Of a stretch of DNA of 64,000 bases, positions 9,353 to 61,906 are shown piece after piece. The notes beneath the pieces are model-generated. The model was given only the letters and a program-made list of their open reading frames with translations, searched no databases and was not told where the DNA came from. The translations under genes and the position numbers were made by a program. The stretch lies in the NCBI RefSeq assembly GCF_001687105.1, contig NZ_CP014597.1:251807-315806 (forward strand), read 5' to 3'. Source of the DNA: Salipiger sp. CCB-MM3. GTDB lineage: Bacteria > Pseudomonadota > Alphaproteobacteria > Rhodobacterales > Rhodobacteraceae. Within the stretch, counting starts at the first letter, position 1; every line of letters starts with the position of its first letter.

Positions 9353-9369
9353 AGCTTCGACCTCGGCAG

Positions 9370-9387
9370 CTGTTACCGTGGTAACAG
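9370..9387. repeat. parS-like palindrome 1
   Basis: CTGTTACCGTGGTAACAG is a perfect 18-bp palindrome between the transglycosylase-like gene and parA. It is one of eight close variants of GTTACCRYRGTAAC between 9.37 and 12.97 kb, the presumed ParB binding sites (centromere). Confidence 0.8.
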
Positions 9388-9565
9388 CCGCTCCGATCAA
9401 CCGGTGATTGGCTTCTCAACCGTTGCGAATAGGCAACCTAACACTCAAACCTCAGACATCTCTGGCCTAATTTCTGAATTCCCTTGATATTTAGATTCAA
9501 TGCAGGCCATTTTGGGTCAAAACACAAAAAACCCAAAGCATAGAGCAGCTATCAAGGACAACGAG

Positions 9566-10942
9566 ATGAAACACACGGCTATCGGGCAGATGCCGAGCTT
9601 TTTCCGTCGTTTGAGCGCGATGCTGAGAAGCATCGACAGCGTTGGCCGGCGGGACGACACCGTAAATCGACGCGTGGAGCGCAAGTTCTCTCTTAAGGAA
9701 GTCGCAGAACTCCTCGACGTCGATCCCGCCACGATCACGAGAGCAAGCGCTGCAGACGCTGATTTCCCGCAGGTCGATAAGATCGGGCGCGAAAAGCGCT
9801 TCGACATCGAGGACGTTATGAAAGTCCGCGCGATGCTCTCCAGCGCCCCGAGAGCACGGAAAAACCACCTTTTCTGGCGCGACCCCGAGGACACTTCTCC
9901 CATCCCGGTTGTATGCTTTTCCAGCCTCAAGGGTGGCAGCGGAAAATCAATCTCGGCATCGCACTTCGCACAGTACCTTAGCCTCTACTACGGCATGCGC
10001 GTCGGGATCATGGATACCGACCCTCAGGCGACCACGACGCTCTACTATGCGAACCAACAGCTCGAAGTGTTCGACCGGAAGGACGGCACCGTTGCCAGCT
10101 TTATGGGCGTTCGCGACTATGGCTCCAATGACGTTGTCGATGAGCCGGCCGATAAGCTCAATGCCATGTGGCAGCCAACTCCTTGGCCCGGCATTCGCAT
10201 CATCCCTGGTGGGCCTGAAATCCAGCGCGGAGACCTGGTCCTCTACAACTTGAGCCTTAAAGCCGACAACCGTCGCCGCCTCGACTTCATCTTAAAGGAC
10301 GCGATCGAACGTTGGAGTGCAGGGTACCCATCCAAAACCCAGCCGAGCGATCTGCGCCGTGCAGATGGAAGCTTTGACAACGAGCGGTACCAAGAAGCGC
10401 TCAACGAGACGGTTGATATCATCATTATCGACCAGCAGCCCTCGCTGACGACGACACAGATGAACGGCATTATCGCAGCGACCAACCTTGCTGTGGTCAT
10501 CGGCTCCCGCGGCTTCGATCTGAACTCTCTCAGCGTTTACGTAGAGAGCGTTCGGAGCATCATCGACACCCACATGGAGCTCGACCCCAACCTCGAACTC
10601 GGCCAAGGGACGCATAGTGTCCTGGTAACAAACGTCGATGAGACCAATAGCACTGACCGTGAACAGTTCGCAGAACTGATCGAGCGTGCTCCGACCGACT
10701 TCCTGCCTCTCTACGCGATCAGAAGCGTCGCGGTGCCTAACGCAGCCAAAGAGTACAAGAGCAACTATGAGTGGACCCCTACTCCCGGCGGCCGTGTTGC
10801 TCAGCAACGTTTCATCAAATACGTGAACGCGGTCAATGATGCGCTGTTTAAGCGCGTGTATCCGAACCAACCCGGCAGGGGTTTCCAAGAGATCGTCGAA
10901 GCTGAGCTTTGGGCTGACGACGACGAGGAGCAGGCAGCATGA
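9566..10942 (+). CDS. parA: ParA-family partition ATPase with N-terminal helix-turn-helix
   Basis: The start at 9566 (MKHTAIGQ, preceded by AAGGACAACGAG) is preferred over 9500, giving 458 residues. Residues 40-90 form a MerR-like helix-turn-helix (FSLKEVAELLDVDPATITRA), typical of type Ia ParA proteins that repress their own operon. The deviant Walker A is SLKGGSGKS (about 120-128). The Walker A' region reads GIMDTDPQATTT and the Walker B region DIIIIDQQPS. ParA drives plasmid copies apart by ATP-dependent, dynamic DNA binding. The stop overlaps the parB start (ATGA), so the two genes are translationally coupled. Confidence 0.92.
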   Translation: MKHTAIGQMPSFFRRLSAMLRSIDSVGRRDDTVNRRVERKFSLKEVAELLDVDPATITRASAADADFPQVDKIGREKRFDIEDVMKVRAMLSSAPRARKNHLFWRDPEDTSPIPVVCFSSLKGGSGKSISASHFAQYLSLYYGMRVGIMDTDPQATTTLYYANQQLEVFDRKDGTVASFMGVRDYGSNDVVDEPADKLNAMWQPTPWPGIRIIPGGPEIQRGDLVLYNLSLKADNRRRLDFILKDAIERWSAGYPSKTQPSDLRRADGSFDNERYQEALNETVDIIIIDQQPSLTTTQMNGIIAATNLAVVIGSRGFDLNSLSVYVESVRSIIDTHMELDPNLELGQGTHSVLVTNVDETNSTDREQFAELIERAPTDFLPLYAIRSVAVPNAAKEYKSNYEWTPTPGGRVAQQRFIKYVNAVNDALFKRVYPNQPGRGFQEIVEAELWADDDEEQAA

Positions 10943-12009
10943 GCAAACTTTCCCGCAAGAAACCGACGGCAGCACCTGTTACCGCGGTAACAGCCGACGC
11001 CGAAACGGCGCCTCTGCAGCATCAAGAGGCTGAGGCATCGAACCTGCATGAGCAGCCGTCGGGACAGCACGATGCAATGCGGATGAACGCTATCCGCCGA
11101 AAGACACTCGACCAAATTTTCTCGCGTCAGCAAACGGTTGAGGTCCCCGTATCCCTCATCGAAGACGAAGTCGGAACCGACCGCTCGCACGACTGGCAAA
11201 ACGACCCGGAGATTGAGGCTCTGGCCTACAATATCCAGAAGGAAGGCCAGATGACGCCAGTTGAACTTCGTGTCAGCGATCCGAACTGGGTTCCACGTGC
11301 CGGCAGATATGAAGTCCGCGATATCCAAGACGATGAGGACGTCAAGTTCTTGGTTCAGGCAGGCCGTCGTCGGATCGAAGCCTGCCGTCGGCTTGGGATC
11401 AAGGTCGTTGCGTTCTTGAATGCCGGCGAGCTCTACGATGACCTCCGCAAGCGTTTCTTCGAGAACTCGATGCGTCAGGACCTGACGCCAATCGACTTCT
11501 TGCGTTCAGTTGGCGGTCTTGCCAAGGAAATGCAGCAGAGGACCGAAGGTGTTTCCGGCGAAACCATCGCGAAGGAACTCGGAGTGAACCGCCAGTACGT
11601 TGTGAACGGTCTTAAGGTCCTTTCGTTGGAAACCGAGATCAATACGCTTCCGAACCAGGGCCGCGACCTCACACACACTGCCCTTCGCAAGCTTCTACCG
11701 CAGCTCACAAGCGGAGAGCCTGTAGAGGCTGTTACCGCAGTAACAGCAGAAGACTCACCGACTGCAATCGCGCACGATGACATTGAGATCGGACAAGAGC
11801 AGGATACTCGCGAAGTCAAAGACCACCGTTCGCGTTCTGTATCGGCTCCTCCGATCCGCCAGACGCGGCGGTTTGCTGGCTACCAATGCCACATGGACAG
11901 TCTCAAAACTGGCGCCGACCTGAAGATCCGCGGCGGAAAGATTTCCGACGAAACCCTGCAAAAGATCGGCGCGGCGATTGAAGACATCCTGCGAGACGCT
12001 CTCGACTAA
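10939..12009 (+). CDS. parB: ParB-family partition protein
   Basis: 356 residues. Near residues 70-150 lies a ParB/Srx fold (VPVSLIEDE, the NIQKEGQMTPVELR box, VQAGRRRIEACRRLG and FFENSMRQDLTPIDF). It is followed by a helix-turn-helix (GETIAKELGVNRQYVVNGLKVL) for binding the centromere. Two parS-like palindromes sit inside this coding sequence. One is at 10978-10991 near the 5' end, where it is read as codons around PVTAVTAD; the other is at 11731-11744. A strong terminator follows the stop. Confidence 0.92.
   Translation: MSKLSRKKPTAAPVTAVTADAETAPLQHQEAEASNLHEQPSGQHDAMRMNAIRRKTLDQIFSRQQTVEVPVSLIEDEVGTDRSHDWQNDPEIEALAYNIQKEGQMTPVELRVSDPNWVPRAGRYEVRDIQDDEDVKFLVQAGRRRIEACRRLGIKVVAFLNAGELYDDLRKRFFENSMRQDLTPIDFLRSVGGLAKEMQQRTEGVSGETIAKELGVNRQYVVNGLKVLSLETEINTLPNQGRDLTHTALRKLLPQLTSGEPVEAVTAVTAEDSPTAIAHDDIEIGQEQDTREVKDHRSRSVSAPPIRQTRRFAGYQCHMDSLKTGADLKIRGGKISDETLQKIGAAIEDILRDALD
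10976..10993. repeat. parS-like palindrome 2, inside parB
   Basis: CTGTTACCGCGGTAACAG, a perfect 18-bp palindrome about 37 bases into parB. A ParB site here could allow feedback on operon expression. Confidence 0.8.
11731..11744. repeat. parS-like palindrome 3, inside parB
   Basis: GTTACCGCAGTAAC with one mismatch in the palindrome, in the linker-coding part of parB (read as AVTAVTAE). The same VTAV peptide appears at palindrome 2 and on the opposite strand at palindrome 8, so DNA sequence rather than protein seems to be conserved. Confidence 0.75.
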
Positions 12010-12034
12010 ACTCGCATCACCATACCTAAATGCC

Positions 12035-12066
12035 AAAGAGCCTCGGTTGCACCGGGGCTCTTTTTT
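12035..12066 (+). terminator. Rho-independent terminator of parAB
   Basis: AGAGCCTCGG pairs with CCGGGGCTCT around TTGCA, followed by six T. It lies about 27 bases after the parB stop and just before palindrome 4. Confidence 0.85.
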
Positions 12067-12071
12067 CGTCT

Positions 12072-12968
12072 GTTACCGTGGTAACGACCGTGCTCATTGC
12101 ACATCGAAGCCACAGTCCCTACGAAGGTTACCTTCCCACAGGACAGCTGAAATCTGCCTTACCCCTCTTTTCATTCGCTGGCTAAAAAGGGGGGTAATAA
12201 GGCATGAAGGTCACCCAGCCGCACGGGATGTTGTCCAACCGGAAAGACCCGTGACACGACTCAAGACATTACCCTCCGCACAATCATGACCGTCGTGCGT
12301 CACTTCCCGATCCGCAAACAATTCTTGTGCGAGCTCTCCTGTTACCACGGTAACAGCTCTACCAAAGCTTCCTCAGAGGGACCCTGCTCAACAAAACCTA
12401 CCGGACCGTGGTCCAGACCCTGCGCTGTTACCACAGTAACAAATCACTGGCTGCCTGATAGAGTTCCTTGCTCTATCATCGCCTCAACCGGGGACAAGTT
12501 CCTATAGATGCGCATCCTGACCGGCTGAACATTCCCTCGAAATCATACCTAGAGGATTTCCGTCCCGGTCGACCGGACGCCCGCTTCTGTTACCACGGTA
12601 ACAGCTTCCGCTCACACAGACGGCTCTACTTGCTCGGTATATAGCTCTCCCTTGAAGTGAGAGAGCAGGCTCTCGACGCCGACTAGCACTTGCTCGACAG
12701 TTTCTTCAGGCTCGTGAACGTCGTCACGTCTCTCGTCGGCTGCCTGCGACACTCCGCTATTCTCTCGCTCAAGCCTTAATGCGCTCTCGAAAATGGCGCT
12801 CTTCAGAGTTCCCATCACAGGCTGACAACGGGCGTGCAAGCTCGGAGCGCCTTCCGCTACCGGCTCGTAAGACAAGGCCAGCCCACAATAAATACAGCGA
12901 TCGTCCGGGCAGGGGACATCCAACAGCCCCCAAAAATCCTCAGTCGAGCTCTCTGTTACCACCGTAAC
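12072..12968. repeat. Cluster of five further parS-like palindromes (4-8)
   Basis: Copies lie at 12072-12085 (GTTACCGTGGTAAC), 12341-12354 and 12589-12602 (both GTTACCACGGTAAC), 12427-12440 (GTTACCACAGTAAC) and 12955-12968 (GTTACCACCGTAAC). The first four are in the 600-bp gene-free stretch after parB. The last is within the gene on the minus strand. The 12.0-12.6 kb stretch otherwise holds only an imperfect inverted repeat near 12152-12200 (GCCTTACCCC ... GGGGTAATAAGGC). The outline GTT...AAC recalls RepABC and other alphaproteobacterial parS sites. Confidence 0.78.
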
Positions 12969-13256
12969 AGCAGACACCGCGAGAGCCTTTGCATGCGCCA
13001 GAGCCTGCGAAACCCGATCGAAGTCGTCTTCTCGCGCGCTCATAACCAACGGCCATGCGAAATCCCCGTGGGTCCGATCGACTTCGAAGTCCTCAAATAG
13101 CTCCGCCTCCCAAAGGTGCCGAACTGATCGCCAGAGTGCGGTCCGGACATCGTCACCACAGCGGATACGCGCCGAGGCATCTGCCATAACGGCGTCCAGA
13201 GTGTCTTCGGCCATAGCCTCCCGCACCTCGTCTGGCAAATGACCTCCGCTCGTCAC
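12612..13256 (-). CDS. Unknown protein with a Cys-rich putative zinc site
   Basis: 214 residues, soluble. CPDDRCIYCGLALSYEP with a later HARC gives four or five candidate metal ligands around residues 117-145. The rest is acidic and helical. No family is recognised. The gene lies between parB and the replication genes, on the opposite strand to parB, and carries a parS-like palindrome in its coding region, which suggests it belongs to the replication/partition module. No Shine-Dalgarno sequence is obvious. Confidence 0.55.
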   Translation of the reverse strand: MTSGGHLPDEVREAMAEDTLDAVMADASARIRCGDDVRTALWRSVRHLWEAELFEDFEVDRTHGDFAWPLVMSAREDDFDRVSQALAHAKALAVSAVTVVTESSTEDFWGLLDVPCPDDRCIYCGLALSYEPVAEGAPSLHARCQPVMGTLKSAIFESALRLERENSGVSQAADERRDDVHEPEETVEQVLVGVESLLSHFKGELYTEQVEPSV

Positions 13257-13342
13257 GTGGCAAATCTATTCTTATAATTCTCCGAAACCTAAAGATCAAC
13301 ACTTACATCTAAAAGAATAAATTAACAGTAGATAAGGATAAC

Positions 13343-13987
13343 CTGAAACCGCTCGACTCTGCAGACAGCCGTGTTGCCGAGGACAACGCCGACCTTATCG
13401 CCGTCGATTGCGCACGCCTCTCGTCTAAGCGTCCCGTCGTTATCAGAAAGACCCAGGGCTGGGTCGAGCTCATTCAAGATGAGCAGGTCAGAGTTCAGTT
13501 CCGTCTGCGCGCGGATCAGCCTCGCCATGACGGAGACGTCTTCCGCGGGTTACTGCAGGTGATCCGCAACGAGCGCACAACCCTACAAGACACGCGCAAC
13601 CTCTTGTCGAGCGTCGCCCGACTACAGATCGTGAGCCTCGAAGACCACGGCTCGAGCTTCTTTGTTCACGTATCCGAAGGCCACAACGGCTTGCCGCGCG
13701 CGCTTTGCCATCTCGATGGCATCCACTTGTGTATTCACGGGTCTGATCCTCGTTATCTGTACTCCTCAGGTTGGCCAAATCATCGCAAGGCACAACGAAG
13801 CTGCCAGTTGCCGCGCTATGAAAACCTAAGACGCTGGAAGCGCAGTCCTGCAGCCCGGCAAGCTCGGGTGAGGGCGCCATCACAGTTCTCGCTGACATAT
13901 CGACGGCCGAATACCGTCCCACCCGAGACCACGAGCGTATCATCTTTGATTGCCCCCATTTTCAGAGAAGACAGCCACGACCGGTAG
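13343..13987 (+). CDS. Unknown protein; open frame without a standard start codon
   Basis: The frame is open from 13313 to 13987 and reads like real protein (VVIRKTQGWVELIQDEQ, VFRGLLQVIRNERTTLQ, IVSLEDHGSSFFVHVSEGH, SDPRYLYSSGWP). No ATG, GTG or TTG occurs before GTG 13559. AAGGA at 13334-13338 sits four bases before a CTG at 13343, a possible rare start. The last 170 bases overlap, on the opposite strand, the 3' end of the DnaA-N-like gene and look less protein-like, so the true end may be near 13830. It may be a decayed or 5'-mutated gene. Confidence 0.35.
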   Translation: MKPLDSADSRVAEDNADLIAVDCARLSSKRPVVIRKTQGWVELIQDEQVRVQFRLRADQPRHDGDVFRGLLQVIRNERTTLQDTRNLLSSVARLQIVSLEDHGSSFFVHVSEGHNGLPRALCHLDGIHLCIHGSDPRYLYSSGWPNHRKAQRSCQLPRYENLRRWKRSPAARQARVRAPSQFSLTYRRPNTVPPETTSVSSLIAPIFREDSHDR

Positions 13988-14847
13988 AAATCGACCCCGC
14001 GATCTCTTGCCACAAGAAGGCAGGCCGCCCGGAACCGAGACGCTTCAGAAGCCTGAGGGGGAAGGGCGCTGCCAGCCAGGAGAGCCCCGGCGACCACCTT
14101 CGTTTGTCCAGAGATCATTGCATCGGACGCCATGAGCGCCTCAACATCGGTATCGATCTTGCTTCCGACCTCTTTCGTTGGCCTCGACGAGCTACGGGCA
14201 CCAGATTTCGGGACCGAGGTCTGAGTTAGTCCCCGCTTCCGATCTGCATCGAGCCATTCCAAGATCGCGAGGTCGAAATCCGAGTACTGATAGCCGCGAT
14301 CTTTGACCTTCGCACGGAACTTGCCGAGATACCGCTTCCCGGCTTCGGAGCCGAGAGCGTCCGTCAGCGTGGTTACGGTTGCGGGCTTCGGCTCCCATTC
14401 ATCAACTGAAATTTCAGAGAGAGATTTGTTAGTTGGATTCTTGTTTGTGTTAGGCTGCTTTACAGGGGGTGTCAGAGGACTGACACTCAAAATTCTATCT
14501 GCATTCTCAGTCTCTTGCTCAGCAGCAACGCAGCAGTCGTTCTCACGATAGATGAGCTTGTAGAGACAGCTTGTAGTCGCGTAGCCGGTGCGGGTTTTCT
14601 TGATGCGGTTGACTTTCACGAGAAGCCCAAGGTTCACGAGCTCTTTGATTGCCGCATTCACCCAAGGTCGAGAGCGACCAAGAATCTCGGCAAGTTCTCC
14701 CTGCGAGGGAAAACAAGTGTCAGCTGTTGCGTCGGCGTGCGAAGAGAGCGTGTTCAAGAGCGAAAGGTGCATACCCTTCCCCTTGAGACGCTTGCCCCAC
14801 CACGCCGGATGCCGAACAAACGGCTCCGGGGTTTCGATAGACATCAC
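13816..14847 (-). CDS. Plasmid replication protein: winged helix plus DnaA N-terminal-like domain
   Basis: 343 residues. Residues 28-105 form a winged helix (HTH_36 style: CFPSQGELAEILGRSRPWVNAAIKELVNLGLL) typical of plasmid and phage replication factors. A flexible linker follows (KQPNTNKNPTNK). Residues 285-335 (DFYRSWLSSLKMGAI, DDTLVVSG, VFGRRYVSENCDGAL) match the pattern of the DnaA N-terminal domain, which in DnaA contacts DnaB helicase. Rhodobacterales have a known DnaA-like plasmid replicon type consisting of parAB, palindromes and a replicase weakly similar to DnaA. This gene, next to parAB, is a good candidate for that replicase. It could instead be an accessory helicase loader for the RepA downstream. 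Confidence 0.65.
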   Translation of the reverse strand: MMSIETPEPFVRHPAWWGKRLKGKGMHLSLLNTLSSHADATADTCFPSQGELAEILGRSRPWVNAAIKELVNLGLLVKVNRIKKTRTGYATTSCLYKLIYRENDCCVAAEQETENADRILSVSPLTPPVKQPNTNKNPTNKSLSEISVDEWEPKPATVTTLTDALGSEAGKRYLGKFRAKVKDRGYQYSDFDLAILEWLDADRKRGLTQTSVPKSGARSSSRPTKEVGSKIDTDVEALMASDAMISGQTKVVAGALLAGSALPPQASEASRFRAACLLVARDRGVDFYRSWLSSLKMGAIKDDTLVVSGGTVFGRRYVSENCDGALTRACRAAGLRFQRLRFS

Positions 14848-14998
14848 TGCTCCGTGGCCGGAATTTACTCATTCCGGTCCTTTTCTATTGTAAGCGGTTC
14901 CGAGGATGCCTATGATCAGAGTGCTAGTATGATCTAAGGCCCTCAGGGGTTTTATATCGAGGGGTGATCAGAGTTGGCGCTCTGGTCACCTCTTTCAT

Positions 14999-16138
14999 TT
15001 AGTGCCTCTTGCTTGCTGCCTCCTTCAGTCGCTCCGCGCTCGGAGTAATCGTTCTGATTTCATAGTCATTGAGCGACGGGTCCCAGTCCGGGATGTCGTC
15101 GAGGTGACGATCAAGACGTGCCTGTTGTTTGGCGCCTCGAACGAACACGTACCACTGGTCTTCCGCTTTTACGCGGCGATTGAACTCGACGGATCTACCA
15201 GGTGCCGCAGTACTGTAAGCGTATACGGCATGGCCAGGAACCATCGTGGCGCCATTGGCGCCCACAACCTGCCGGCGGAAGTTCTTCCTGAATGCCTTAG
15301 GGTCCTGGTCGAAACCAGTGTGCATCATGAGTTTCTCGAGGCTGATCTTGAAAACCTCCTGAGCGCTTTCTACCCTCGCGACTTCATAAATCCTCTGCAC
15401 AAAGGCGCTCTTGAGCTGGAAGTACTCAGGCGCATAGTTGAGAAGCTCAGCGTCTTCGTCGATTGCGGCAACGATCCAGTCACACGGCTCGATCGAGAAA
15501 GACGTCATGCAGCGGCGCTCTTTCCCGCCCACATTCCGAGTCTCATAGTGCATGCTCGCCCTCTGGAACCAGCTGAACCACTCATCTACACCGCGGCCGT
15601 TCATCTCGATGTTGGTGTAGATCCGCATGCTCTGAAGGCGCTGAATGCTCAAACGGACCTGATCGTAAGCGTAGCCAGTCGAAGTCGTGTTGGTAGCGCG
15701 GAGGTACTCGGAGATCGTCACGTCTACGTTCCGCGGCGTGGTGCCGGTCGAACGCCTGATATGAGCCATTTTTGAGATGACGAACATGAAGAAGTGCTTG
15801 TCGAACTGAGTTGCCAAACCGTACTTTGGGTTCGGTTCACACCGCAGTTCCACCGTCACATCGTTCCAAGGCGCTTTAGTAACCAGAGACATCTCTGTGG
15901 TCGCAATCGCGAAGAACTTGAAGACCATGAGCAACGGCTTGTTGCCGATGCCCGTCACACGGCTTTGGTCGCCGAGGTCAAGAGGCAGCTGCGCTACATC
16001 CATGCCCTCGAGCTCTTCCGTACCCTCAATGTCTACCGTTTCCAGCATTCTAGACGCCATTTCTCGGCCTGATTTTATGTTCCCTGCTCGTTGGTCACCA
16101 TTGTTCACATCCGCCTCTTTCGACGCAAACGGATTCAT
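14999..16138 (-). CDS. repA: Replication initiator protein A (RPA family)
   Basis: With the start at MNPFASKEAD (16138) the protein has 379 residues. The longer frame to 16300 would be built entirely from iteron DNA and is rejected. Family features are the N-terminal LMVFKFFAIATTEMSL region, TPRNVDVTISEYLRATN, RLSIQRLQSMRIYTNIE (winged-helix-like) and LLNYAPEYFQLKSAFVQRIYEVARV. RPA-family initiators bind iterons and open the origin of low-copy alphaproteobacterial plasmids (the RepA class). About 17 iterons lie immediately upstream, some right up to the start codon, which suggests autorepression by the initiator. Confidence 0.85.
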   Translation of the reverse strand: MNPFASKEADVNNGDQRAGNIKSGREMASRMLETVDIEGTEELEGMDVAQLPLDLGDQSRVTGIGNKPLLMVFKFFAIATTEMSLVTKAPWNDVTVELRCEPNPKYGLATQFDKHFFMFVISKMAHIRRSTGTTPRNVDVTISEYLRATNTTSTGYAYDQVRLSIQRLQSMRIYTNIEMNGRGVDEWFSWFQRASMHYETRNVGGKERRCMTSFSIEPCDWIVAAIDEDAELLNYAPEYFQLKSAFVQRIYEVARVESAQEVFKISLEKLMMHTGFDQDPKAFRKNFRRQVVGANGATMVPGHAVYAYSTAAPGRSVEFNRRVKAEDQWYVFVRGAKQQARLDRHLDDIPDWDPSLNDYEIRTITPSAERLKEAASKRH

Positions 16139-17117
16139 ACGTAGTTGCCGGTCCGTCAGACAGAAATCTGACGTAGTTGATGGTCCATCTTCAAGGTCAC
16201 TTTGGGTGCCCCGCGTAGTTTCTGGTCCAACGCGGCACAAGAACGATCCAGGTGGGACTCCTGGCCCCGAATCTTCTCTTGCACGTAGTTGGTGGGCCAT
16301 AGGGTCCTCAAGTTCTTGATTTACAGACGTAATTATTCACCCAAGGGTGGCGTCTGCGGTTTATAGTTGGATACCTCGGGAGCCGTTCTAGATTCCCGCA
16401 AGCTGCCCGTCGCCTACCGGTTCGCCCCTTGGACCCTCAACTACGCTCCGCGGAGATCAGCAGTAAGTGTGACCTGAAAACCTCGCGTAGTTCTCGGTTC
16501 GTTGGTAGGCTAACATCCAGTTTAAAGCAGTAATAACAGATATTTAAGTATATCTCGAACCACTTACTACGCGAGATATCTCGACTAAGGAGCCGATCCT
16601 GAAGGGACCATCTGCGACGTGTGGAGGCCCTTGATTGGACCGAGAACTACGCGTGTCAGAGTCAAATGGACCGTCAACTACGTGCTAGACGCGGTGATCG
16701 GGCGAAATATTGGGGGAATGCGACAGTTGCGGTCCTGTGAAAGCTCAAACCACGCCAATGACTTCGGACAGAATGGACCATGTATGACGCGTTTTCAGTG
16801 TCGCTTGGACCGGCAACTACGCGTCGATGTTGGGGTTGGACCCTGAACTACGTGGATAACTCTGTGCACGAAAATGCGACGGACCAAGTGTGACGCGATC
16901 AATTATCTCAAACTAGGTTTCGCGCAATGAGTTCTGAAGCAATGGACCATCTATTACGTGCTTTTCGGCCTCCTGAGAGACGATCGGACTGAGAATGGAC
17001 CATGTGTTACGTGGATCGCGGGGACTTTGGACCATCAACTACGTGGAAAACTCGCAGCTGCTTGCGAATGGACCATCAGCGACGTGCATCGCTAGTCAAC
17101 GGACCACCAACTACGTG
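16139..17117. repeat. Iteron array and probable replication origin (oriV)
   Basis: About 17 copies of a 17-bp element with consensus GGACCATCAACTACGTG. Copies on the minus strand start at 16139, 16171, 16213, 16283 and 16483. Copies on the plus strand start at 16430, 16637, 16668, 16775, 16807, 16838, 16881, 16944, 16997, 17029, 17070 and 17101. The GGACC and ACG(T/C)G ends are most conserved. The orientation flips across an AT-rich stretch at about 16505-16590 (TAATAACAGATATTTAAG), a plausible unwinding element. The spacing is irregular. The array fills the whole gap between repA and the next gene. Confidence 0.85.
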
Positions 17118-39359: not shown

Positions 39360-39899
39360 CTACCGGCCGCTCCAAGTTGTCCAGCCTTCGCGCGAACTGC
39401 TACCAAAGAGCTCGAGGAAAGGACCCCAACTACAGCGCTCGATGATCTGATACTGAGCCTGGGGCTTGCCGCTCGTGTTCAGGTCCCCGTCGGGATCGAA
39501 GGGGATGAAGTTTACGGTGCTGCGCGCGGGGCCGAGAGTGCGAACGTTCTTGCCGCGAGTCCCAAATAGAAGAAGTTCGGTGACGTCGGAAAAGACTTCG
39601 TCGCCTTCCTGACCTTCAGTGGTACGGGACTTCTGCCACACGATATTGCCGGTGTACTTAAAGCCCCAGGACTGGAGGACCTTCATGCCGTCCGGAAGTT
39701 TGGAGTTCGGCACCCACAGATAGCAGTGCGCGCGATCGTCCATATGCTCCGCAACCGATAGGGCGCAGATCTCTTCGACAGTCAGGCTGCTTTCGAGTTC
39801 CGTCTGGTTGGCGTTGAACGGATCGGCGAGGAGGCATCCGAACTTCCGGCCCTCGAGAAAGGAGCTTATCTGAGGGGCGGTGCTCGGAGGTGCTGTCAT
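39360..39899 (-). CDS. MT-A70-family methyltransferase homologue with altered catalytic motif
   Basis: 179 residues from MTAPPSTAPQ (39899, AGGA upstream); the frame to 40154 lacks protein character before that. ILTVEEICALSV, HCYLWVPNSKLPDG, GFKYTGNIVWQKSR, VTELLLFGTRGKN, YQIIERCSWGPFLELFGSS and REGWTTWSGR are all MT-A70 landmarks. These enzymes methylate adenine N6 in DNA or RNA using a DPPW motif. Here the corresponding site reads ADPFN, so activity is doubtful. A role as orphan plasmid methylase or a degenerate copy is possible. Confidence 0.75.
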   Translation of the reverse strand: MTAPPSTAPQISSFLEGRKFGCLLADPFNANQTELESSLTVEEICALSVAEHMDDRAHCYLWVPNSKLPDGMKVLQSWGFKYTGNIVWQKSRTTEGQEGDEVFSDVTELLLFGTRGKNVRTLGPARSTVNFIPFDPDGDLNTSGKPQAQYQIIERCSWGPFLELFGSSSREGWTTWSGR

Positions 39900-40342
39900 G
39901 GGTCGTTCCTTTTTGTCCAAGCTCCGGTATCGGAGATAAGCTGCAGGAAGTCGAGCCTTGTTCAAACACTGGCTGGGGGAGAGTGCCCTGAGCGGAGCGC
40001 GTGGCGAATTCGAGCGTCGTATGGTCGAACGCGACGAGTGATTGTGGATGCCCCTGACAGACTTTGGGGTATCCAAGTGTTTGCCGGTAGGCGGGAAGGG
40101 CGACGGCTGCGCGGAGCAATGTGCAGGGATCAAAAATCCAGCAATTGGCAACAAGCAAAGAGCATGGAGCGCGACGACCGGGGAGCAAAGGTCAAGAGGC
40201 CCAACGCCTCGTATCGAAACCCGGATAGCACGCTCTTTCGAACTCCGTGAGGTGGTGCGAGCGATCTAACCCTTCCCAGACGGCCACCCCAAGCTCCTAG
40301 AGCAAGGAAACCAGAGGCGAGTGAGTGGCCGTCATCTCGAGC
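39900..40342. other. Gene-free stretch
   Basis: 443 bases between the MT-A70 gene and the coiled-coil gene. No reading frame with protein character, no clear hairpin and no repeat seen. It probably holds the promoter of the MT-A70 gene at its left side. Confidence 0.5.
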
Positions 40343-41562: not shown

Positions 41563-42711
41563 CTATGCCGAGAGGCGCTCGAACAAGAATAGATGGTAGT
41601 CCAGAAGCCAGTTCTCAGGGAGAGGGCGCTCTCCGTTCAAGGTCTGGGTTTGCCATTGATTGAATGTGCTCGCATCGCCACCCTCGAGGGTGAGGTGACT
41701 GTCTGTGAGCTTCCGGCTCCATGTGTGGGAAAGCCCCGAGATGTCTGATTTGCGCCTCGCGTACTCGGCATTGGAAACAGGCGGCAGGCTTCGTTTCTCT
41801 CGGCTAAAACCCGTCATCATCGACATGAAGCGGAGCTCAGGAGTCTCTCCATTCTTGGGCACGCCATCTGTCGAGAAGGATTTCAGAAACTCTTCATGCA
41901 CCTGCAGGAGCTCGTCGCTCTTGAGGCCTGCCTTGCAGGCTTCGGGAATGATCATATCATTCTGATACAGTGGATGGCTTCGGTACCACTCCTGCAGCGC
42001 AGCGATCTTCTCGGCCTCTTCCGAGAGTTCGTACTGCCGCCGGATAGCTTCGGCAGCTTTTTCCTTTGTGGTAGTCGGCATCTTGGCGTTCTTGTCTGCG
42101 CGCTTCCAACGCATGTATTCAATGCAGGAAGGGAAGATCTGCAGATCGGCTACGTCTGCCGCCATGACCTCTTCTTCTTCAAGGTCGAAGCGACGCACGG
42201 TTTCGTAAAGCCCTGGCTCGATGATCTCTTCGTAGAACTTCACGAGCCCCTTGAAGCTCTCATCACAGTCATTGCTGGTTGCCTCGCGAAGGAAATAGGT
42301 GGCGTAGAGGACGACATCATCATCGGGGTGTGCTTGCAGGGCAGTGGCCCACTCGATCTGGCGTGGCCAGATGAACTCTCGAACTTGCATGACACCAATG
42401 ACGCCATATTGCTTGACTAGGGTTCGTACGATGTGCGGGGCAGGCATATCGGGCTCCTTTGCCCGCTTTTCGGCAAACTTGAAGTAGCTGACGTCAGGAG
42501 ACTTCATCGCCGATAGCCTGATGGGGTCATCGGGTTTGTACAAGCATGTGTGGTTCAGCCATTCACGATGCAGGCTCTCGGGGGTGAAACGTGTCCCGTC
42601 GATCTCCTTGGCAACCACCTGCTTGATGTTGTCAGAGACCTCCAGGGCTGCCGCGATTTCTTCTACGTAGCGCAGGCGAGCTGAGACGTTTTCCTGAAGG
42701 GTGCTGGTCAT
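41563..42711 (-). CDS. Unknown protein coupled to the Rep_3 initiator
   Basis: 382 residues, soluble and helical (LRYVEEIAAALEVSDNIKQVV; HIVRTLVKQYGVIGVMQVREFIWPRQIEWATAL). The start codon overlaps the rep stop by four bases (ATGA), so it is translated together with the initiator. This suggests a role in replication control or plasmid stability. No family recognised. Confidence 0.6.
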   Translation of the reverse strand: MTSTLQENVSARLRYVEEIAAALEVSDNIKQVVAKEIDGTRFTPESLHREWLNHTCLYKPDDPIRLSAMKSPDVSYFKFAEKRAKEPDMPAPHIVRTLVKQYGVIGVMQVREFIWPRQIEWATALQAHPDDDVVLYATYFLREATSNDCDESFKGLVKFYEEIIEPGLYETVRRFDLEEEEVMAADVADLQIFPSCIEYMRWKRADKNAKMPTTTKEKAAEAIRRQYELSEEAEKIAALQEWYRSHPLYQNDMIIPEACKAGLKSDELLQVHEEFLKSFSTDGVPKNGETPELRFMSMMTGFSREKRSLPPVSNAEYARRKSDISGLSHTWSRKLTDSHLTLEGGDASTFNQWQTQTLNGERPLPENWLLDYHLFLFERLSA

Positions 42712-43757
42712 TCGAACTCCATGAGAATGCTGTCTAGAACGTTGTTGTCGAACCGGTCGGGCTGTGGCGATCGCTCACTTTCAAGTCGGGCACGAAGCCA
42801 GGAAAGGAACGTCTGGTCAGGGTCGGCTATCGCTTCACCGTCCACTGAGGCTCGCCAGGTATCGAGATAAGTTACGAGCGCGGTGTCGGTGCCGTAGAAC
42901 TGCTCAAGCAAGGTGCTGGCGTCGGCCACAGCCTCCTCAGAGACCACCAGCTTCCGGCCGGCTTCCGTGTCAGAGTGTCCCGTGAGCATGTCGACCGTGA
43001 GAGGGTCACGCGGCTTCTTCTTTGCCGGCTTCGACCGCTTCGTGAGTACGATCTCACTCCGGGGGACGATAGAGAACTCCAAACCGGTCACTCGCCCGCC
43101 GCGGCCACTGCGGATGTACTGAACGCGAACACCGAAGGGTGCATGTGTGTTGCATTCCTCGATGGCTTTCTCGATGACCACCCTTCTCAGATTGTCGAAG
43201 CGATTATACCGGTCCTCAGCCACGCCGAAGCGCTGCTTGAACTCCTCGAGGGAGACGTGCCAGGTCCGATGCTTTCGGTTCTGGTAGAGCGACAAGATCT
43301 CAAACATCTTGGCACCCTGTGTCGTCTTGAATTCTTTGTAGATCGCCATGTTGATCTTGGCGTAGATTTTAGGATCGAAGATGAACTGCATTAGGATGGG
43401 GTCGAAGGCGTATTCTAGGTCTCCATCGATCGTGCGAGAGACATCGAACGAGAGGAAGTGGCAGCTCACTGAGTGAGGGGTTCCATTGTTGATGTAGTCG
43501 AGGTCGATTGTCACCTTGGTGAGGTTCCGAAGACTCTGCTCAAGCCTTTCGATACTGGCGTGCCCAAGGTAGCCCAAGATCTCTTGGATCGGGACCCTCT
43601 GCAGTCCGGTGCGATCTTCGCGTTCGCCGGATTTGTACAGCAGAAAGAGGAAGGCCCTCATGTCCTGGAGCTCAAGTTGGTACTTGCCCCGAGCCATGAT
43701 GAGATCGTGGCTCTTTCGGACGGTTCCGTCGGCTTTGGGTGTTAAGTTTCTATTCAT
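42708..43757 (-). CDS. repB: Rep_3-family (RepB-type) plasmid replication initiator
   Basis: 349 residues. Two winged-helix domains typical of Rep_3 initiators: SHDLIMARGKYQLELQDMRAFLFLLYKSGE and IDLDYINNGTPHSVSCHFLSF, then IYAKINMAIYKEFKTTQGAKMFEILSLYQ and the second wing HVSLEEFKQRFGVAEDRYNRFDNLRRVVIEKAIEE. It is unrelated to the RPA-type RepA at 15-16 kb. Iterons lie 90-170 bases upstream of the start. It heads an operon of four genes. Confidence 0.88.
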   Translation of the reverse strand: MNRNLTPKADGTVRKSHDLIMARGKYQLELQDMRAFLFLLYKSGEREDRTGLQRVPIQEILGYLGHASIERLEQSLRNLTKVTIDLDYINNGTPHSVSCHFLSFDVSRTIDGDLEYAFDPILMQFIFDPKIYAKINMAIYKEFKTTQGAKMFEILSLYQNRKHRTWHVSLEEFKQRFGVAEDRYNRFDNLRRVVIEKAIEECNTHAPFGVRVQYIRSGRGGRVTGLEFSIVPRSEIVLTKRSKPAKKKPRDPLTVDMLTGHSDTEAGRKLVVSEEAVADASTLLEQFYGTDTALVTYLDTWRASVDGEAIADPDQTFLSWLRARLESERSPQPDRFDNNVLDSILMEFE

Positions 43758-43850: not shown

Positions 43851-43926
43851 ACAATTTGTAGTTATAGAAGCTGGTTTGAGGCCAATGTTGACAAACAATT
43901 TGTAGTGAATGAGTAACAATTTGTAG
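43851..43926. repeat. Iterons of the second origin
   Basis: Three copies of ACAATTTGTAG at 43851-43861, 43895-43905 and 43916-43926. The last two are spaced 21 bases apart, two helical turns. The core ACAATTTGT is nearly palindromic. The surroundings are AT-rich compared with the rest of the window, fitting the binding site and unwinding region of the Rep_3 initiator and its autorepressed promoter. Confidence 0.75.
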
Positions 43927-44005
43927 GTTAAAAGCTCCTTTCGACCTCAATTTATCCTTTGTGGGCAATGCCTTGCGAGCCCCCAGATTTTGCTAGAATA
44001 GAGAA

Positions 44006-44068
44006 GGGCGTGTGCGTGTGCGCGTGCGGGCCCGTGTACGTGTGCGCCTACGCGTGCGCGCGCGAGAG
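44006..44068. other. Alternating purine-pyrimidine tract (possible Z-DNA)
   Basis: About 60 bases made nearly only of GT, GC and AC steps (GCGTGTGCGTGTGCGCGTGC and later CGCGTGCGCGCGCG). Such tracts can flip to left-handed DNA under negative supercoiling. It sits between the iterons of the second origin and the hairpin array. Confidence 0.5.
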
Positions 44069-44162
44069 GAGCCGATTTCGAGGCATCGGAACAGGGTCGT
44101 CTGCAAGCCCTACGAATGCTTTCGGAAACGATTCCGGAGCGTTTATTGAGAGATCTCTTACC

Positions 44163-45800
44163 GGCGCTTTTGCGCCCGACGTTGGATTCCTACCGATCAA
44201 GTTTGATGGACTCCCTAGTTCGGGCCACCACGGCCCGGTTTCGGAGGCGTTGACAGACTTTCTAGCGATCGGGATTCCTGACAGCCGCTTGCGCGGTTGC
44301 TCAGCCGAGTCCTGGAGGAGTTGTAGGGAGCCGATATCCCCGGGCGCTCACGCGCCGAAAGGTTGGATTCCGACGCTCATGAAGGGGAAGACATCGGAAT
44401 GGTGGCAAACCACCTCTTGTGGGCCGGTCTAGGCCGGTTTCCGAGTGTGACATGGGGGCGGCTTACCCATGGCGAAATCGGTTGCGGATGAGGTCCGAGA
44501 TTCCTAGGGATCGAGTGTGATGGACTCCGTACTTCGGCCCCCACGGGCCGTTAAGGTAAGCGATCCCCCAATTGGGGCGAGCCGGGTTGCTGCCCGCCGC
44601 GTGGGCGGCTGGTGCAGTCGGTTTCTTCACGTCTTGCTGGTGACCGCTCTCCCTGGGCGTCTACGCGCCGATTGGGCGGATTCCGACCCTCGGGAAGGGG
44701 AAGACATCGGAAAGACCGTAAACCCTCTCCTACGGGCCGTTCTAGGCCCTTCTGTGCGTACCATGGTTTGTGGTTTCGTCTGAGGTCGACGCTTCCTACT
44801 GAGGTTATTAGATTCCCGATGCACCCGTATGAGGATTCCTTACTCCGGCCCACCACGGGCCGGCTCAGGTATCGGTTCCCGGCAGGGAGATGCGGATACG
44901 GTTTCACGAAACCTGGTTGTCGGCGGTACCCCCAAGGCGCGTACGCCCACGTTTCTTCGCTTCCGACCCTTCGGAAGAGGAGACGCGGCAACCATCCTCT
45001 ACGGACGGTTGCTGGCCCGACTACGAGCATCCTGGCTATCGGTTTCATTTGAGGGTGACGTTTTCCGGCATCGACGTTGGACTCCTGACAGGTCGGTATA
45101 CGACTCCTCAGTTCGGCCCTTGATGGGCCGTGGGAGGGTGCGATCTCCGGCAGGCACATCTGGAGACGACTCCTTCAAGGCGCTAAAGCGCCCGATTTCT
45201 TTGAATCCGACCGTTTGGAAGGGAATGACACCGGAACGATGAGAAGCCACCACGCAAGGGCCGTTCTAGGCCCGAAAATGGCCAACCTGGCATAGGAACC
45301 TTCTGGAACTACGGTTCCTAGAGACTTCATCGGCTTCCGGTAGTAAGGATTTTTAGGTTACCTTCCCTCGGCCCTATGGCCGTTTAAGGCGACGGTTTCG
45401 GATAGGCTTGTGGAGGACGGTTCCCTGACGGCCGACACGGCCGCTGGTTGAAGACGTCTTCGGGTAAGTTCTTCCGCAAACGATCTCCTTCAAGGCGCTA
45501 CAGCGCCCGATTTCCTTGAGTCCGACCATCTGGAAGGGAATGGCACAGGAACGGTGAGAAACCGCCACGAACGAGCCGTTTTAGGCGGAATACTGGCTAT
45601 CCTGGTCTGCGATTCAAGTTGTCGTAGACCCTCCCAGATGGAGACATAGGGGCTCCCGCCATGCAGATGGAGGATCCTGACAGGGTTGAGGCTTACGGAT
45701 TCCTGTCAGCTACATCGCCGGCGAGTGGAGGTGGTGCCTTCAAGGCGCTTAAGCGCTGATTTTGTGGTAACCGCGTCGTCGTCGAAGGCGGGTGGAAACA
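44163..45800. repeat. Degenerate tandem array of hairpin-rich units, possible structured RNA locus
   Basis: Unit starts at 44163, 44343, 44655, 44936, 45179, 45494 and (partial) 45744. Each unit begins with a short GC hairpin (GGCGC loop GCGCC; loops TTTT, TCAC, CTA, GTA, AAA, ACA). Most then carry a stem TTCCGA ... TCGGAA around GGAAGGGGAAGAC, and a self-complementary GGGCCGTTCTAGGCCC (44734, 45258; variants 44421, 45573). A segment like GATTCCT..GATC.AGT.TGATGGACTCC and a hairpin CGGCCC ... GGGCCG (44221, 44535, 44845, 45114, 45369, 45429) complete the unit. Units end in CTCCTTCAA in the last three copies. No reading frame has protein character, and the strand is unknown. Confidence 0.7.
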
Positions 45801-45921
45801 CGCGTATGCGTGGAGCGGAGTGGTGACTCTCGGAACGCGCACACTGCCGGGCATTGCTTGACGATACGCTTGGTTAACCCCGGTTGCTCATATCCTGTCG
45901 GATATTGCTTGAGGGAAAACC

Positions 45922-46897
45922 ATGGAACGGATGAGAGCACGGGTAACACGAGCGCTTGCGCTCGGCCTGGTGGCGGGACTCGCGAGTGCATGCTTGCCAG
46001 AAAGCAGGGATGAGGCTGCAGACGCATCCGAGGTTTCAGTCCGAGACCTCTATCCGACCGTTTTCAAAGCGGTAGATTTTCAGAGTTTTTCTGATGTTTT
46101 TGGTCCGGAGTTGACTGAACTTAAGAAATCAGACCCCGGTCAGTATCAAGCAGTCATCCGCGGCATGGCCCGCAGCATTGCTTTCGAGCCACTGTCGGTA
46201 TCGCCTGAGCAGATGCGCGAGAAACTTCCGGAAGCTACGCCCTTTGATGATCTTCCTGAAGCCGGGTCGAGAGAGTTTCTGAAGCAGTTCTACGATGTCT
46301 CCTCTGATTTTCTTTCAGAGGGGGGGGATGACCTTTGAAAGCATTCAGACGATCGGCGAAGGTCACCAGAAGAACGCGGTGACGAAGTATCAAAACGCCT
46401 TGTATAGGTACATTGAGAAGCTTCGCGAGAAGAAGGTGGCCATCAATGCCAAGAACCGGAAGATCCAGCAATTGCTTGACCTGGTATCGTTCATCCAGCC
46501 GACCGTGCAGCAGGATGGGTCGGTTCTGACAATCAGGGTTCCCGCAAGAAACGGTACCGATCAAGCATTGGCCAGCCTCGAGGTGACGGTCAGCGCCAAG
46601 ACGGCTGCAGAAAGCTGGGCGGAGCCAGAACCTATCGGCGCGACGACAGTGCAGTTCAAAGATAATTTCCTGTCCAAGGAGAGCCGTGTCCTCGAGTTTT
46701 CGGTAGAGACCGAAGACTACACCGGTGGGCAGATTAGTTTGGACGTGACCGAGTTGACCACTGAGGGTGGATTCTCGATCAATGAGCAAACTATGGCTGA
46801 GCCAATTCAGGTGATTGATGAGCTTATCAGCGATGCCGAGTGGAAGCGCAGGATGATCGAAGATGAGCTTCAGAGTGCGACGGAACGCTACCCCTGA
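45922..46897 (+). pseudogene. Putative lipoprotein, frame broken at a G8 run
   Basis: ATG 45922 follows GAGGGAAAACC. The signal ALALGLVAGLASAC gives a probable lipidated Cys24. The first frame stops at 46338 (FLSEGGDDL). The protein continues in another frame from GGMTFESIQTIGEGHQKNA to ELQSATERYP at 46897, with a C-terminal beta-rich domain (VLTIRVPARNGTDQALASLEV) that looks like an immunoglobulin-like fold. The switch lies at eight consecutive G (46320-46327). Joined length is about 324 residues. It is the first gene after the hairpin array and reads away from it. Confidence 0.65.
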
Positions 46898-47942: not shown

Positions 47943-48623
47943 ATGGCCAGCAACGAATTGAAGAAAAAAATTCAGAAGTCACGACGCGTCAACGGGGTGC
48001 GGGTACTCTCGGAGCTCGATATTGAAAGGATGCTCGAGGTCGCTGATGCAACCCGATATCCGATCCGTAACCGTGCAATTATCCTTCTGGGAACGGACGC
48101 TGGACTGACACCGCTGGAGATCTCCTACCTCAAGAGATACCACGTCTACGGGGACGACGACCTGCTGGGAGAGGCAATTGATCTCAGGGCGAAACCGGGC
48201 GTGTATCGTATGCCGCGCGTCATACCGATGGTCCGCAAGGGGCGCCTTTGGAACGCGATCCATTCACTGCTTGAAAACGTTCCGGCCGTTCCCGGCGATC
48301 CGCTGGTTATTTCAGAGCGTGCCACAGAAGGCGGGAAGGCAACCCTGAACCCAGGTTCGAAACCGCTGCGCGCCATGCGAACGGACAGCATTTCATACGT
48401 TTTCTGGAAGGTGATGGATAAGGCTGGAATATCGAACGCTTCAGCTCTTACAGCGAGGGCCACGTTCATCGTCAAGGCAGGTAAGACGGCTGCTGAGCGG
48501 GGAATGAGCATTCGGAACGTGCAGGAAATGACCGGGCTTAGATCACTGGAGTCAGTGCAGCGGCTCCTCGAGGCCAGCGAAGCAGACAAAGAGACAATCA
48601 TCCACGACCTCTTCAGCCGCTGA
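47943..48623 (+). CDS. Tyrosine-recombinase-like protein lacking catalytic residues
   Basis: 226 residues. RNRAIILLGTDAGLTPLEISYLKRYHV aligns with box I of phage integrases (normally TGLRxxEL), but the catalytic Arg is replaced by Thr. ALTARATFIVKAGKTAAERGMSIRNVQEMTGLRSLESVQRLLEAS aligns with box II (HxLRHTFAT ... LGH). The His is not conserved, and the Tyr nucleophile position reads as Leu/Arg. The fold may be kept for DNA binding while strand transfer is lost. It is divergent from recX. Confidence 0.55.
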   Translation: MASNELKKKIQKSRRVNGVRVLSELDIERMLEVADATRYPIRNRAIILLGTDAGLTPLEISYLKRYHVYGDDDLLGEAIDLRAKPGVYRMPRVIPMVRKGRLWNAIHSLLENVPAVPGDPLVISERATEGGKATLNPGSKPLRAMRTDSISYVFWKVMDKAGISNASALTARATFIVKAGKTAAERGMSIRNVQEMTGLRSLESVQRLLEASEADKETIIHDLFSR

Positions 48624-61081: not shown

Positions 61082-61906
61082 GTGGAGCATGTGTGCGAGA
61101 CACTCGGCATCTCCGAACGCCGGGCCTGCCGGGTGCTCGGCCAACACCGCTCCACGCAGCGCAAGCCACCACAGGGCCGGGAAGACGAGGCGCGGCTGAC
61201 CGCCGACGTCATCGATCTGGCCCGGGAGTATGGCCGCTACGGCTACCGCCGGGTCGCCGTGCTGCTGCGGCGTGCCGGCTGGCAGGTGAACCACAAGCGG
61301 GTGGCGCGCATTTGGCGGCGCGAAGGGCTCAAGGTCCCACACAAGCAGAAGAAGCGCGGCAGGCTCTGGCTGAACGATGGCTCTTGCGTGCGGCTGAAGC
61401 CCGAGCACCCCAACCACGTCTGGTCCTACGACTTCGTGCAGGACCGGACCAGTGACGGCCGGACCTACCGGACGCTCAACATCCTCGATGAATATACGCG
61501 GGAGGCGTTAATGATCCGTGTCGACAGGCGACTGAACTCCACCGATGTCCTGGACGCCCTGACCGATCTCTTCATCCAGCGCGGCCCGCCGCGGTTCATC
61601 CGGTCCGACAACGGCCCGGAGTTCATCGCGCAGAAGGTCCGCGACTGGATCGAGTTGGTGGGGGCGAAGACCGCCTACATCGAGCCGGGGTCACCCTGGG
61701 AGAACGGTTATTGCGAGAGCTTCAACAGCAGGTTCAGGGACGAACTCCTCAATGGCGAGGTCTTCTACTCGTTGAGGGAGGCGCAAATCCTCATCGAACA
61801 ATGGCGAAAGCACTACAACACCGCTCGGCCGCATAGCGCTCTTGGATATCGGACACCGGCACCGGAGACATTCATCCCCATAGACCGAAGGCCGACCATG
61901 CATTAG
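61082..61906 (+). CDS. IS3-family OrfB transposase (DDE integrase)
   Basis: 274 residues as a separate frame, probably made as an OrfAB fusion. HTH_21 region (GRYGYRRVAVLLRRAGWQVN) and the catalytic triad Asp in WSYDFVQDRT, Asp in RSDNGPEF and Glu in YCESFNSRFRDELL. C-terminus HSALGYRTPAPE as in active copies. Confidence 0.92.
   Translation: MEHVCETLGISERRACRVLGQHRSTQRKPPQGREDEARLTADVIDLAREYGRYGYRRVAVLLRRAGWQVNHKRVARIWRREGLKVPHKQKKRGRLWLNDGSCVRLKPEHPNHVWSYDFVQDRTSDGRTYRTLNILDEYTREALMIRVDRRLNSTDVLDALTDLFIQRGPPRFIRSDNGPEFIAQKVRDWIELVGAKTAYIEPGSPWENGYCESFNSRFRDELLNGEVFYSLREAQILIEQWRKHYNTARPHSALGYRTPAPETFIPIDRRPTMH

Follow-up and report, generated by a model that had tools for sequence, protein, structure and literature searches.

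The Rep3 origin region

The window, as the whole 64,000-nucleotide stretch of Salipiger sp. CCB-MM3 DNA analyzed here is called, is part of a 316-kb contig. It carries a replication initiator gene of the Rep3 family, with iterons beside it, and a lipoprotein-like gene. Between the iterons and the lipoprotein-like gene lies a gene-free array of short hairpins and GANTC sites. The features of the region are as follows.

42708..43757, minus strand: Rep3-family replication initiator gene (Pfam Rep3_N and Rep3_C)
43851..43926, plus strand: three iterons ACAATTTGTAG, at 43851, 43895 and 43916 (exact search, repeat family)
44008..44064, no strand assigned: alternating purine-pyrimidine GTGCGC tract, which is also a long imperfect inverted repeat
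44100..45800, no strand assigned: array of 18 GANTC sites and 18 perfect hairpins of at least 5 bp
45922..46897, plus strand: lipoprotein-like gene, in two overlapping open reading frames (ORFs), 45922-46338 and 46295-46897

The six best matches of the initiator in a collection of plasmids are 28.6-36.8% identical to it and come from alphaproteobacterial plasmids of 0.47-1.32 Mb. Nearer relatives are found as proteins in Roseivivax sp. CAU 1761 and Salipiger (Yangia) sp. PrR003. The origin is not of the repABC type: its initiator is Rep3, and the sole RepC match of the genome is on another contig. No alternating run in the window is longer than the 21 nt found in the GTGCGC tract. Its folding energy is -35.3 kcal/mol on the plus strand and -19.9 kcal/mol on the minus strand, neither being better than those of shuffled sequences.

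The lipoprotein-like gene is a single ORF of 331 amino acids in Salipiger mucosus, and one source names this homolog Lipoprotein. The initial annotation, which had placed the array between a plasmid origin and a lipoprotein gene, was thus right about both flanks, with the initiator and its iterons on one side and the gene at 45922 on the other. A run of G is present near the overlap of the two ORFs (46295-46338). The homologs in S. mucosus and Roseivivax are single proteins, so that the interruption in the window is either genuine or a sequencing error.

Organization of the array

The hairpin array is real. The interval 44160-45760 has 17 perfect hairpins of at least 5 bp compared to 7.5 ± 2.5 in dinucleotide shuffles, none of 300 shuffles having as many. 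The recurring elements are positioned as listed here, where R1 is a structured-RNA model built from five units of the window.

About 44163, 44343, 44655, 44936, 45179, 45494 and 45744: starts of the units, full and partial
44163..44176, plus strand: hairpin h1, GGCGC-N4-GCGCC, first copy; further copies at 44343-44356, 44656-44669, 45179-45192, 45494-45507 and 45744-45757
44207..44239, plus strand: module of a GANTC site and a CGGCCC/GGGCCG hairpin, the GANTC starting 11-12 bp before the hairpin; further copies at 44521-44552, 44832-44864 and 45100-45132, and one at 45355-45384 that has lost its GANTC
44329..44453, plus strand: unit block (alignment, model R1) of h1, GANTCCGAC, a G-rich element and GGGCC/GGCCC; further copies, some with decayed elements, at 44642-44766, 44924-45030, 45167-45291 and 45482-45606

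The seven unit starts had been located correctly, within a few bases, in the initial annotation. The fixed order of elements proposed there is most complete in units 2-5, whereas units 1, 6 and 7 are partial, as judged by reading. Two components were absent from the proposed list of elements: the clustered GANTC sites and, at 44008-44064, the alternating GC/GT tract. Individual elements vary, again by reading. The TTCCGA/TCGGAA pair encloses the G-rich element in units 2 and 3 only, and closes on itself as a tight hairpin in unit 4. Exact copies of GGAAGGGGAAGAC are confined to unit 3, of GGGCCGTTCTAGGCCC to units 3 and 5, and of TGATGGACTCC to units 1 and 2.

Comparison of the window with itself detects blocks that are 72% and 83% identical at spacings of 313 and 315, and the mean pairwise identity of five units is 61% over a 127-column alignment. 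The stems have nevertheless persisted in these diverged copies, as had been claimed. Pairing is kept in 35 of 35 cells of h1 (six window copies and one from S. mucosus, leaving out the copy of unit 4, which is shortened by an indel) and in 29 of 30 cells of the CGGCCC/GGGCCG hairpin (copies of units 1-5). The remaining hairpin set is paired in 34 of 36 cells, which brings the three sets to 98 of 101, the imperfect copies (h1 of unit 4 and a partial copy near L012:9495, L012 being the S. mucosus locus) being left out. Two of the six window copies of h1 contain one G-U pair. The unit alignment shows stem decay in units 4 and 6.

Two other explanations of the repeats were dropped on reading the sequence. 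Coding repeats would have to accommodate spacings of 313, 314 and 311, which are not multiples of 3, and the main loops lack the GGA of a CsrA sponge.

The GANTC cluster

GANTC is the methylation site of the cell-cycle methylase CcrM. The window contains 105 such sites, of which 18 are in the 1.7 kb of 44100-45800 and 87 in the other 62.3 kb; this remainder of the window served as the background. The best 1600-nt interval has 18 sites and the median interval has 2, while in 2-kb bins the array has 20 and the next densest bin 9. When the sites of the window were placed at random, none of 5000 trials reached 17 in any 1601-nt interval. The excess is smaller relative to dinucleotide shuffles of the array itself, where 17 sites compare to 8.3 ± 2.7 and the largest of 2000 shuffles has 19. 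A ranking of gapped 4-mers (gaps of 0 to 3) with 8 or more occurrences in the array puts GA.TC first, with a 7.6-fold enrichment over the remainder of the window.

Only 11 of the 116 five-column windows of the unit alignment keep their four outer letters in at least four of the five units, and among these 11 GANTC alone has three or more different middle bases. On the plus strand, 17 of the 18 array sites read GANTCC, compared to 33 of 87 elsewhere in the window. A GANTC starts 10-12 bp before 5 of the 18 hairpins of the window, and 2 of 1700 circular shifts give as many. Both this distance and the alignment criterion were chosen after the data had been seen, and the distance and alignment tests are not independent because the array copies are related by duplication. 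Four of the 17 spacings between neighboring GANTC sites are 22-24 bp, or about two helical turns. A stretch of the same plasmid that bears parS sites (12010-13815) has only 2 GANTC.

The GANTC sites could conceivably belong to a promoter region of the lipoprotein gene controlled by GcrA and CcrM and unrelated to replication. GcrA acts together with GANTC methylation (PMC11514494), and the lipoprotein gene is downstream of the array in both plasmids. However, the 17 or 18 sites here extend over 1.6 kb, compared to the three to six at the promoters described there. Furthermore, the GANTC sites outside the array that are nearest to the start of the gene are at 45825 and 45977, the latter being intragenic, and the consensus scan found no promoter. 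This explanation is very improbable.

The counterpart in Salipiger mucosus

The gene order around rep in a 702-kb contig of S. mucosus DSM 16094 matches that of the window, as judged by reading. The proteins have diverged, with identities of 50% for the Rep3 initiator, 41% for the next gene, 43% for the second part of the lipoprotein and 75% for a recombinase-like protein. The interval between rep and the lipoprotein gene in S. mucosus contains iterons, a GTGCGC tract (L012:8837-8882) and a gene-free stretch. BLAST found no match between this gene-free stretch and the window.

The S. mucosus stretch contains the same kinds of elements. It has 18 perfect hairpins compared to 5.6 in shuffled sequences (0 of 200 as high), and the hairpin GGCGC-N4-GCGCC recurs in it. 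Twelve GANTC sites start within 763 bp, a density reached in none of 5000 random placements; relative to dinucleotide shuffles, 12 sites compare to 7.5, and 25 of 500 shuffles are as high. GANTC precedes 3 of the 18 hairpins by 10-12 bp (14 of 1100 circular shifts). Model R1 aligns there at 17.4 bits, with hairpin, GANTCCGAC and GGAAG in unchanged order, and has a second match of 14.8 bits. Together with the same location and gene order, this suggests that the S. mucosus plasmid carries a diverged version of the array.

R1 was rejected as a model that could delimit a family. Matches of 16.7-23.7 bits occur in 35 of 292 other genomes, and the genome-wide search of the 292 genomes returned no match in S. 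mucosus itself. Seven of the matching loci were inspected, and each has one match, two of them with a weak second (10.6 and 8.3 bits), and no array. Because R1 matches of this strength occur elsewhere, the homology with S. mucosus is supported mainly by location.

The replicon appears to be rare. BLAST of the array region found no match in 72,556 plasmid records and, in 61 whole genomes, only the region itself and a 33-base match in one other genome (G009), which was dropped as it is inside long ORFs. The further searches for relatives used strict limits. The replicon is present in 2 of the 20 genomes of the genus that were searched, those of the window and of S. mucosus, and absent from 18; a search with a neighbor protein or Rep in the 19 of these other than that of the window gave one match, S. 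mucosus. Rep found its own genome and S. mucosus among 389 relatives (E 1e-40), and its own genome only among 385 genomes of the class (E 1e-50). The recombinase-like protein likewise found only its own genome among 394 genomes of the family (E 1e-20). A search of GTDB contigs gave one locus, that of S. mucosus, and viral contigs contained no relatives.

The rarity of the replicon (18 of 20 genomes without it), the partial state of units 1, 6 and 7 and the decayed stems of units 4 and 6 are what would be expected of a decaying satellite or palindrome-rich junk without function. Nevertheless, S. mucosus has the same kinds of elements at the same place, with detectable homology, and in both plasmids GANTC is dense in the array and sparse in its surroundings. 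The initial annotation had counted the absence of similar arrays in relatives among the signs of a degenerate satellite; since one related plasmid has such an array, a mere satellite is quite unlikely.

Hairpins as RNA or as DNA

The array was originally proposed to be a structured RNA locus. This would be a rightward transcript, either a leader of the lipoprotein gene or a separate RNA, in which the hairpins act as RNA. The persistence of the stems in diverged copies is consistent with such a function, and of the five one-sided changes seen among the two sets of GGCGC type, three give G-U on the plus strand, one A-C and one G-A. The G-U changes are a slight hint of a plus-strand structure. 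Folding is better than that of shuffles in S. mucosus stretches (z of -3.44 and -2.41) and at 43990-44160 of the window (z of -3.08).

However, two units of the window fold no better than shuffles (z of -0.64 to -1.46), and the z of -2.41 of the S. mucosus stretch 9130-9430 is the same on either strand. Compensatory changes are limited to one in each of two hairpin sets and zero in the third, and the covariation scores of the three sets were matched by 500, 140 and 81 of 500 shuffles, which is not significant. Rfam has no match in the window at the gathering score, and relaxing the limit to an E of 1 gave none in either the array or its S. mucosus counterpart. A consensus scan for sigma-70-like promoters found none, although alphaproteobacterial promoters may deviate from the consensus. 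Moreover, a structured RNA would leave GANTC with its free middle base unexplained, and the GANTC cluster, which such an RNA does not predict, is the strongest signal of the locus. An RNA is not favored and is rather unlikely.

Palindromes need not mean RNA, because the region of the window at about 10.4-12.8 kb, which contains several parS-type palindromes, is nearly as hairpin-rich as the array (16-17 per 1.6 kb). The palindromes of the array might similarly be sites for a protein that acts in partition, resolves the plasmid or handcuffs it in the manner of iterons, GANTC being secondary. Their variable inner bases resemble dimer sites, the eight parS-type palindromes at 9372-12968 would also pass the hairpin criterion (by reading), and a recombinase-like protein is conserved nearby (75% in S. 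mucosus). On the other hand, ParA-like and ParB-like genes with palindromes are present at 9.4-13 kb, so that a centromere probably already exists there. The motif GTTACC-N2-GGTAAC, with up to 2 mismatches, occurs at 8 places, all within 9372-12968 and none in the array. A single rigid dimer site would also not be expected to vary as the array palindromes do, in both sequence and spacer length (3 to 6). Protein binding of this kind is unlikely to be the main role of the array.

GANTC at other origins

Eleven Rep3 loci were compared, namely those of the window and S. mucosus and nine plasmid records, which were taken from 364 records with a Rep match as the six best-ranked and three picked from lower ranks. 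GANTC near rep is clearly clustered in five of the nine, marginally in one and not in three. The clear cases are Rhizobium leguminosarum pRlX5 (15 sites in 360 bp, 0 of 3000 trials), Bosea RAC05 (11 in 336 bp directly upstream of rep, 1 of 3000), Niveispirillum (10 in 667 bp, 0 of 5000), Limimaricola (7 in 684 bp, 2 of 5000) and Tritonibacter (6 in 553 bp, 19 of 5000). Bosea ANAM02 is marginal: at 400 nt, 8 sites are found in 336 bp of a gene-free palindrome stretch (125 of 3000), and at 800 nt the best interval is elsewhere and is not significant (1030 of 3000). There is no GANTC cluster within 13 kb, about 6 kb on each side of rep, at the loci of M. extorquens AM1 and two Acetobacter plasmids.

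Both Bosea plasmids and R. leguminosarum have gene-free stretches of repeats or palindromes that contain GANTC; the gene-free palindrome stretch of Bosea RAC05 is not its main GANTC cluster. Perfect short hairpins are enriched in R. leguminosarum (9 compared to 3.6, 1 of 200) and not in the Bosea plasmids. In pRlX5 a 20-nt inverted repeat with GANTC in both arms is positioned shortly before rep (L011:5606-5662).

The cells of the window and of S. mucosus contain other origins as well. Two RPA-type origins have small clusters, 5 GANTC in 158 bp (228 of 5000) and 6 in 272 bp (53 of 5000), and a third has no cluster. At a repABC locus of the same two cells GANTC is not significant (822 of 5000). 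All 14 loci counted have fewer GANTC sites than expected from shuffles, for example 34 compared to 109 in L012 and 10 compared to 69 in L039.

A possible control region for replication

GANTC is enriched near the origin relative to the rest of the window, and the host encodes a CcrM-type methylase, with methylase and RAMA domains. The match of this protein to the NCBIfam CcrM model is full-length, with a score of 634 bits that is below the cut-off of 830. In S. mucosus a RAMA match exceeds its cut-off, and a 239-residue ORF comprises the later part of the methylase domain and RAMA. The S. mucosus gene is thus not in one ORF as deposited, owing to either an assembly error or a real change.

The balance of the sequence evidence tips slightly towards the array being a cis-acting, CcrM-dependent DNA control region of the Rep3 origin. 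GANTC sites are packed beside the iterons, and many of them have a GC-rich palindrome roughly one helical turn away; the host has a CcrM-type methylase, and a diverged version is at the same place in a related plasmid. The absence of a GANTC cluster from three of the 11 Rep3 loci weakens this interpretation. Overall, the data suggest a DNA switch in preference to a new RNA, one that may link plasmid replication with the cell cycle.

Such a switch might work as follows. Passage of the replication fork would leave the GANTC sites of the array hemimethylated, a state that would last until CcrM is produced towards the end of the cell cycle. A candidate reader protein would sense the methylation state of the array, for which the palindromes could provide docking sites, unless they are extruded as hairpins. 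Reader and array together would hold off re-initiation, or time the activity of rep, and the plasmid would then fire once per cycle.

A more specific form of the control region is a dedicated methylation-sensing array of Alphaproteobacteria for origin sequestration, in which tandem GANTC-plus-palindrome modules are bound by a putative reader of hemimethylated GANTC in a rare lineage of megaplasmids. In function it would correspond to the GATC cluster with SeqA in enteric bacteria. This form is tentative and, on present indications, somewhat doubtful. We know of no SeqA-like reader for GANTC, nor of a reader of hemimethylated GANTC at origins.

Relation to known systems

Several known origins resemble the array in part. 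The repABC loci are reported to be GANTC-rich, and CcrM to affect the timing of ori2 in Agrobacterium (PMC6090056, PMC11514494). The array is similar in that a secondary replicon, in a host that has CcrM, carries more GANTC than expected around its origin (PMC6090056, PMC11514494, PMC9040568), and cell-cycle timing, if it applies to the array, would be a further similarity. Unlike repABC replicons, however, the plasmid of the array has a Rep3 initiator and iterons. The Agrobacterium repABC region is reported to have three GANTC each in the promoter, intergenic region and ori, whereas the array has 18 in palindromic tandem units.

Dense adenine-methylation sites beside an origin are also a property of E. 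coli oriC (Dam/SeqA) and of the origin of V. cholerae chromosome 2 (see PMC2865523), and some spacings in the array likewise approximate two helical turns. Those origins use GATC and Dam, whereas the array combines GANTC and CcrM with palindromes. The 3parS locus of Paracoccus aminophilus pAMI4 is also a gene-free stretch near a megaplasmid origin, with a GANTC-rich patch nearby (PMC9040568). It has five GANTC and RepB-bound parS sites on a repABC plasmid, whereas the parS-type palindromes of the window are more than 30 kb away from the array.

No such hairpin/GANTC array at a plasmid origin is described in the titles and abstracts of the open-licence literature searched, which bears out the earlier claim of a conserved gene-free hairpin locus for which no description was found. 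GANTC-rich origins of repABC replicons are already known, and the tandem hairpin/GANTC array at a Rep3 origin is regarded as a new form of this known type. GANTC clustering at origins is suggested to extend beyond repABC to Rep3 plasmids, and the array bears on how CcrM methylation feeds into the replication of secondary replicons in Alphaproteobacteria. Being compact, strongly clustered and fast-evolving, it could serve as a natural DNA bait in finding a reader of hemimethylated GANTC.

Neighboring genes

PDB sequence searches with two of the neighbor proteins gave no match. A gene for an MT-A70-type adenine methyltransferase (39360-40154, minus strand; Pfam PF05063, PHROG DNA methyltransferase) is downstream of the rep gene group; S. 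mucosus has a ribonucleotide-reductase-like ORF at this position, by reading. The recombinase-like protein (47943-48623, plus strand) is the most conserved of the four neighbors compared. It is 46-48% identical to proteins of a Microvirga plasmid and of the M. extorquens AM1 megaplasmid and, by eye, seems to lack the usual catalytic residues. A transposase-like gene with an rve integrase core is found at 61082-61906 on the plus strand. The window also contains a second replication and partition module at 9372-16300, composed of ParA-like and ParB-like genes, parS-type palindromes and a diverged RPA initiator, and a similar diverged RPA is present on the 702-kb contig of S. mucosus.
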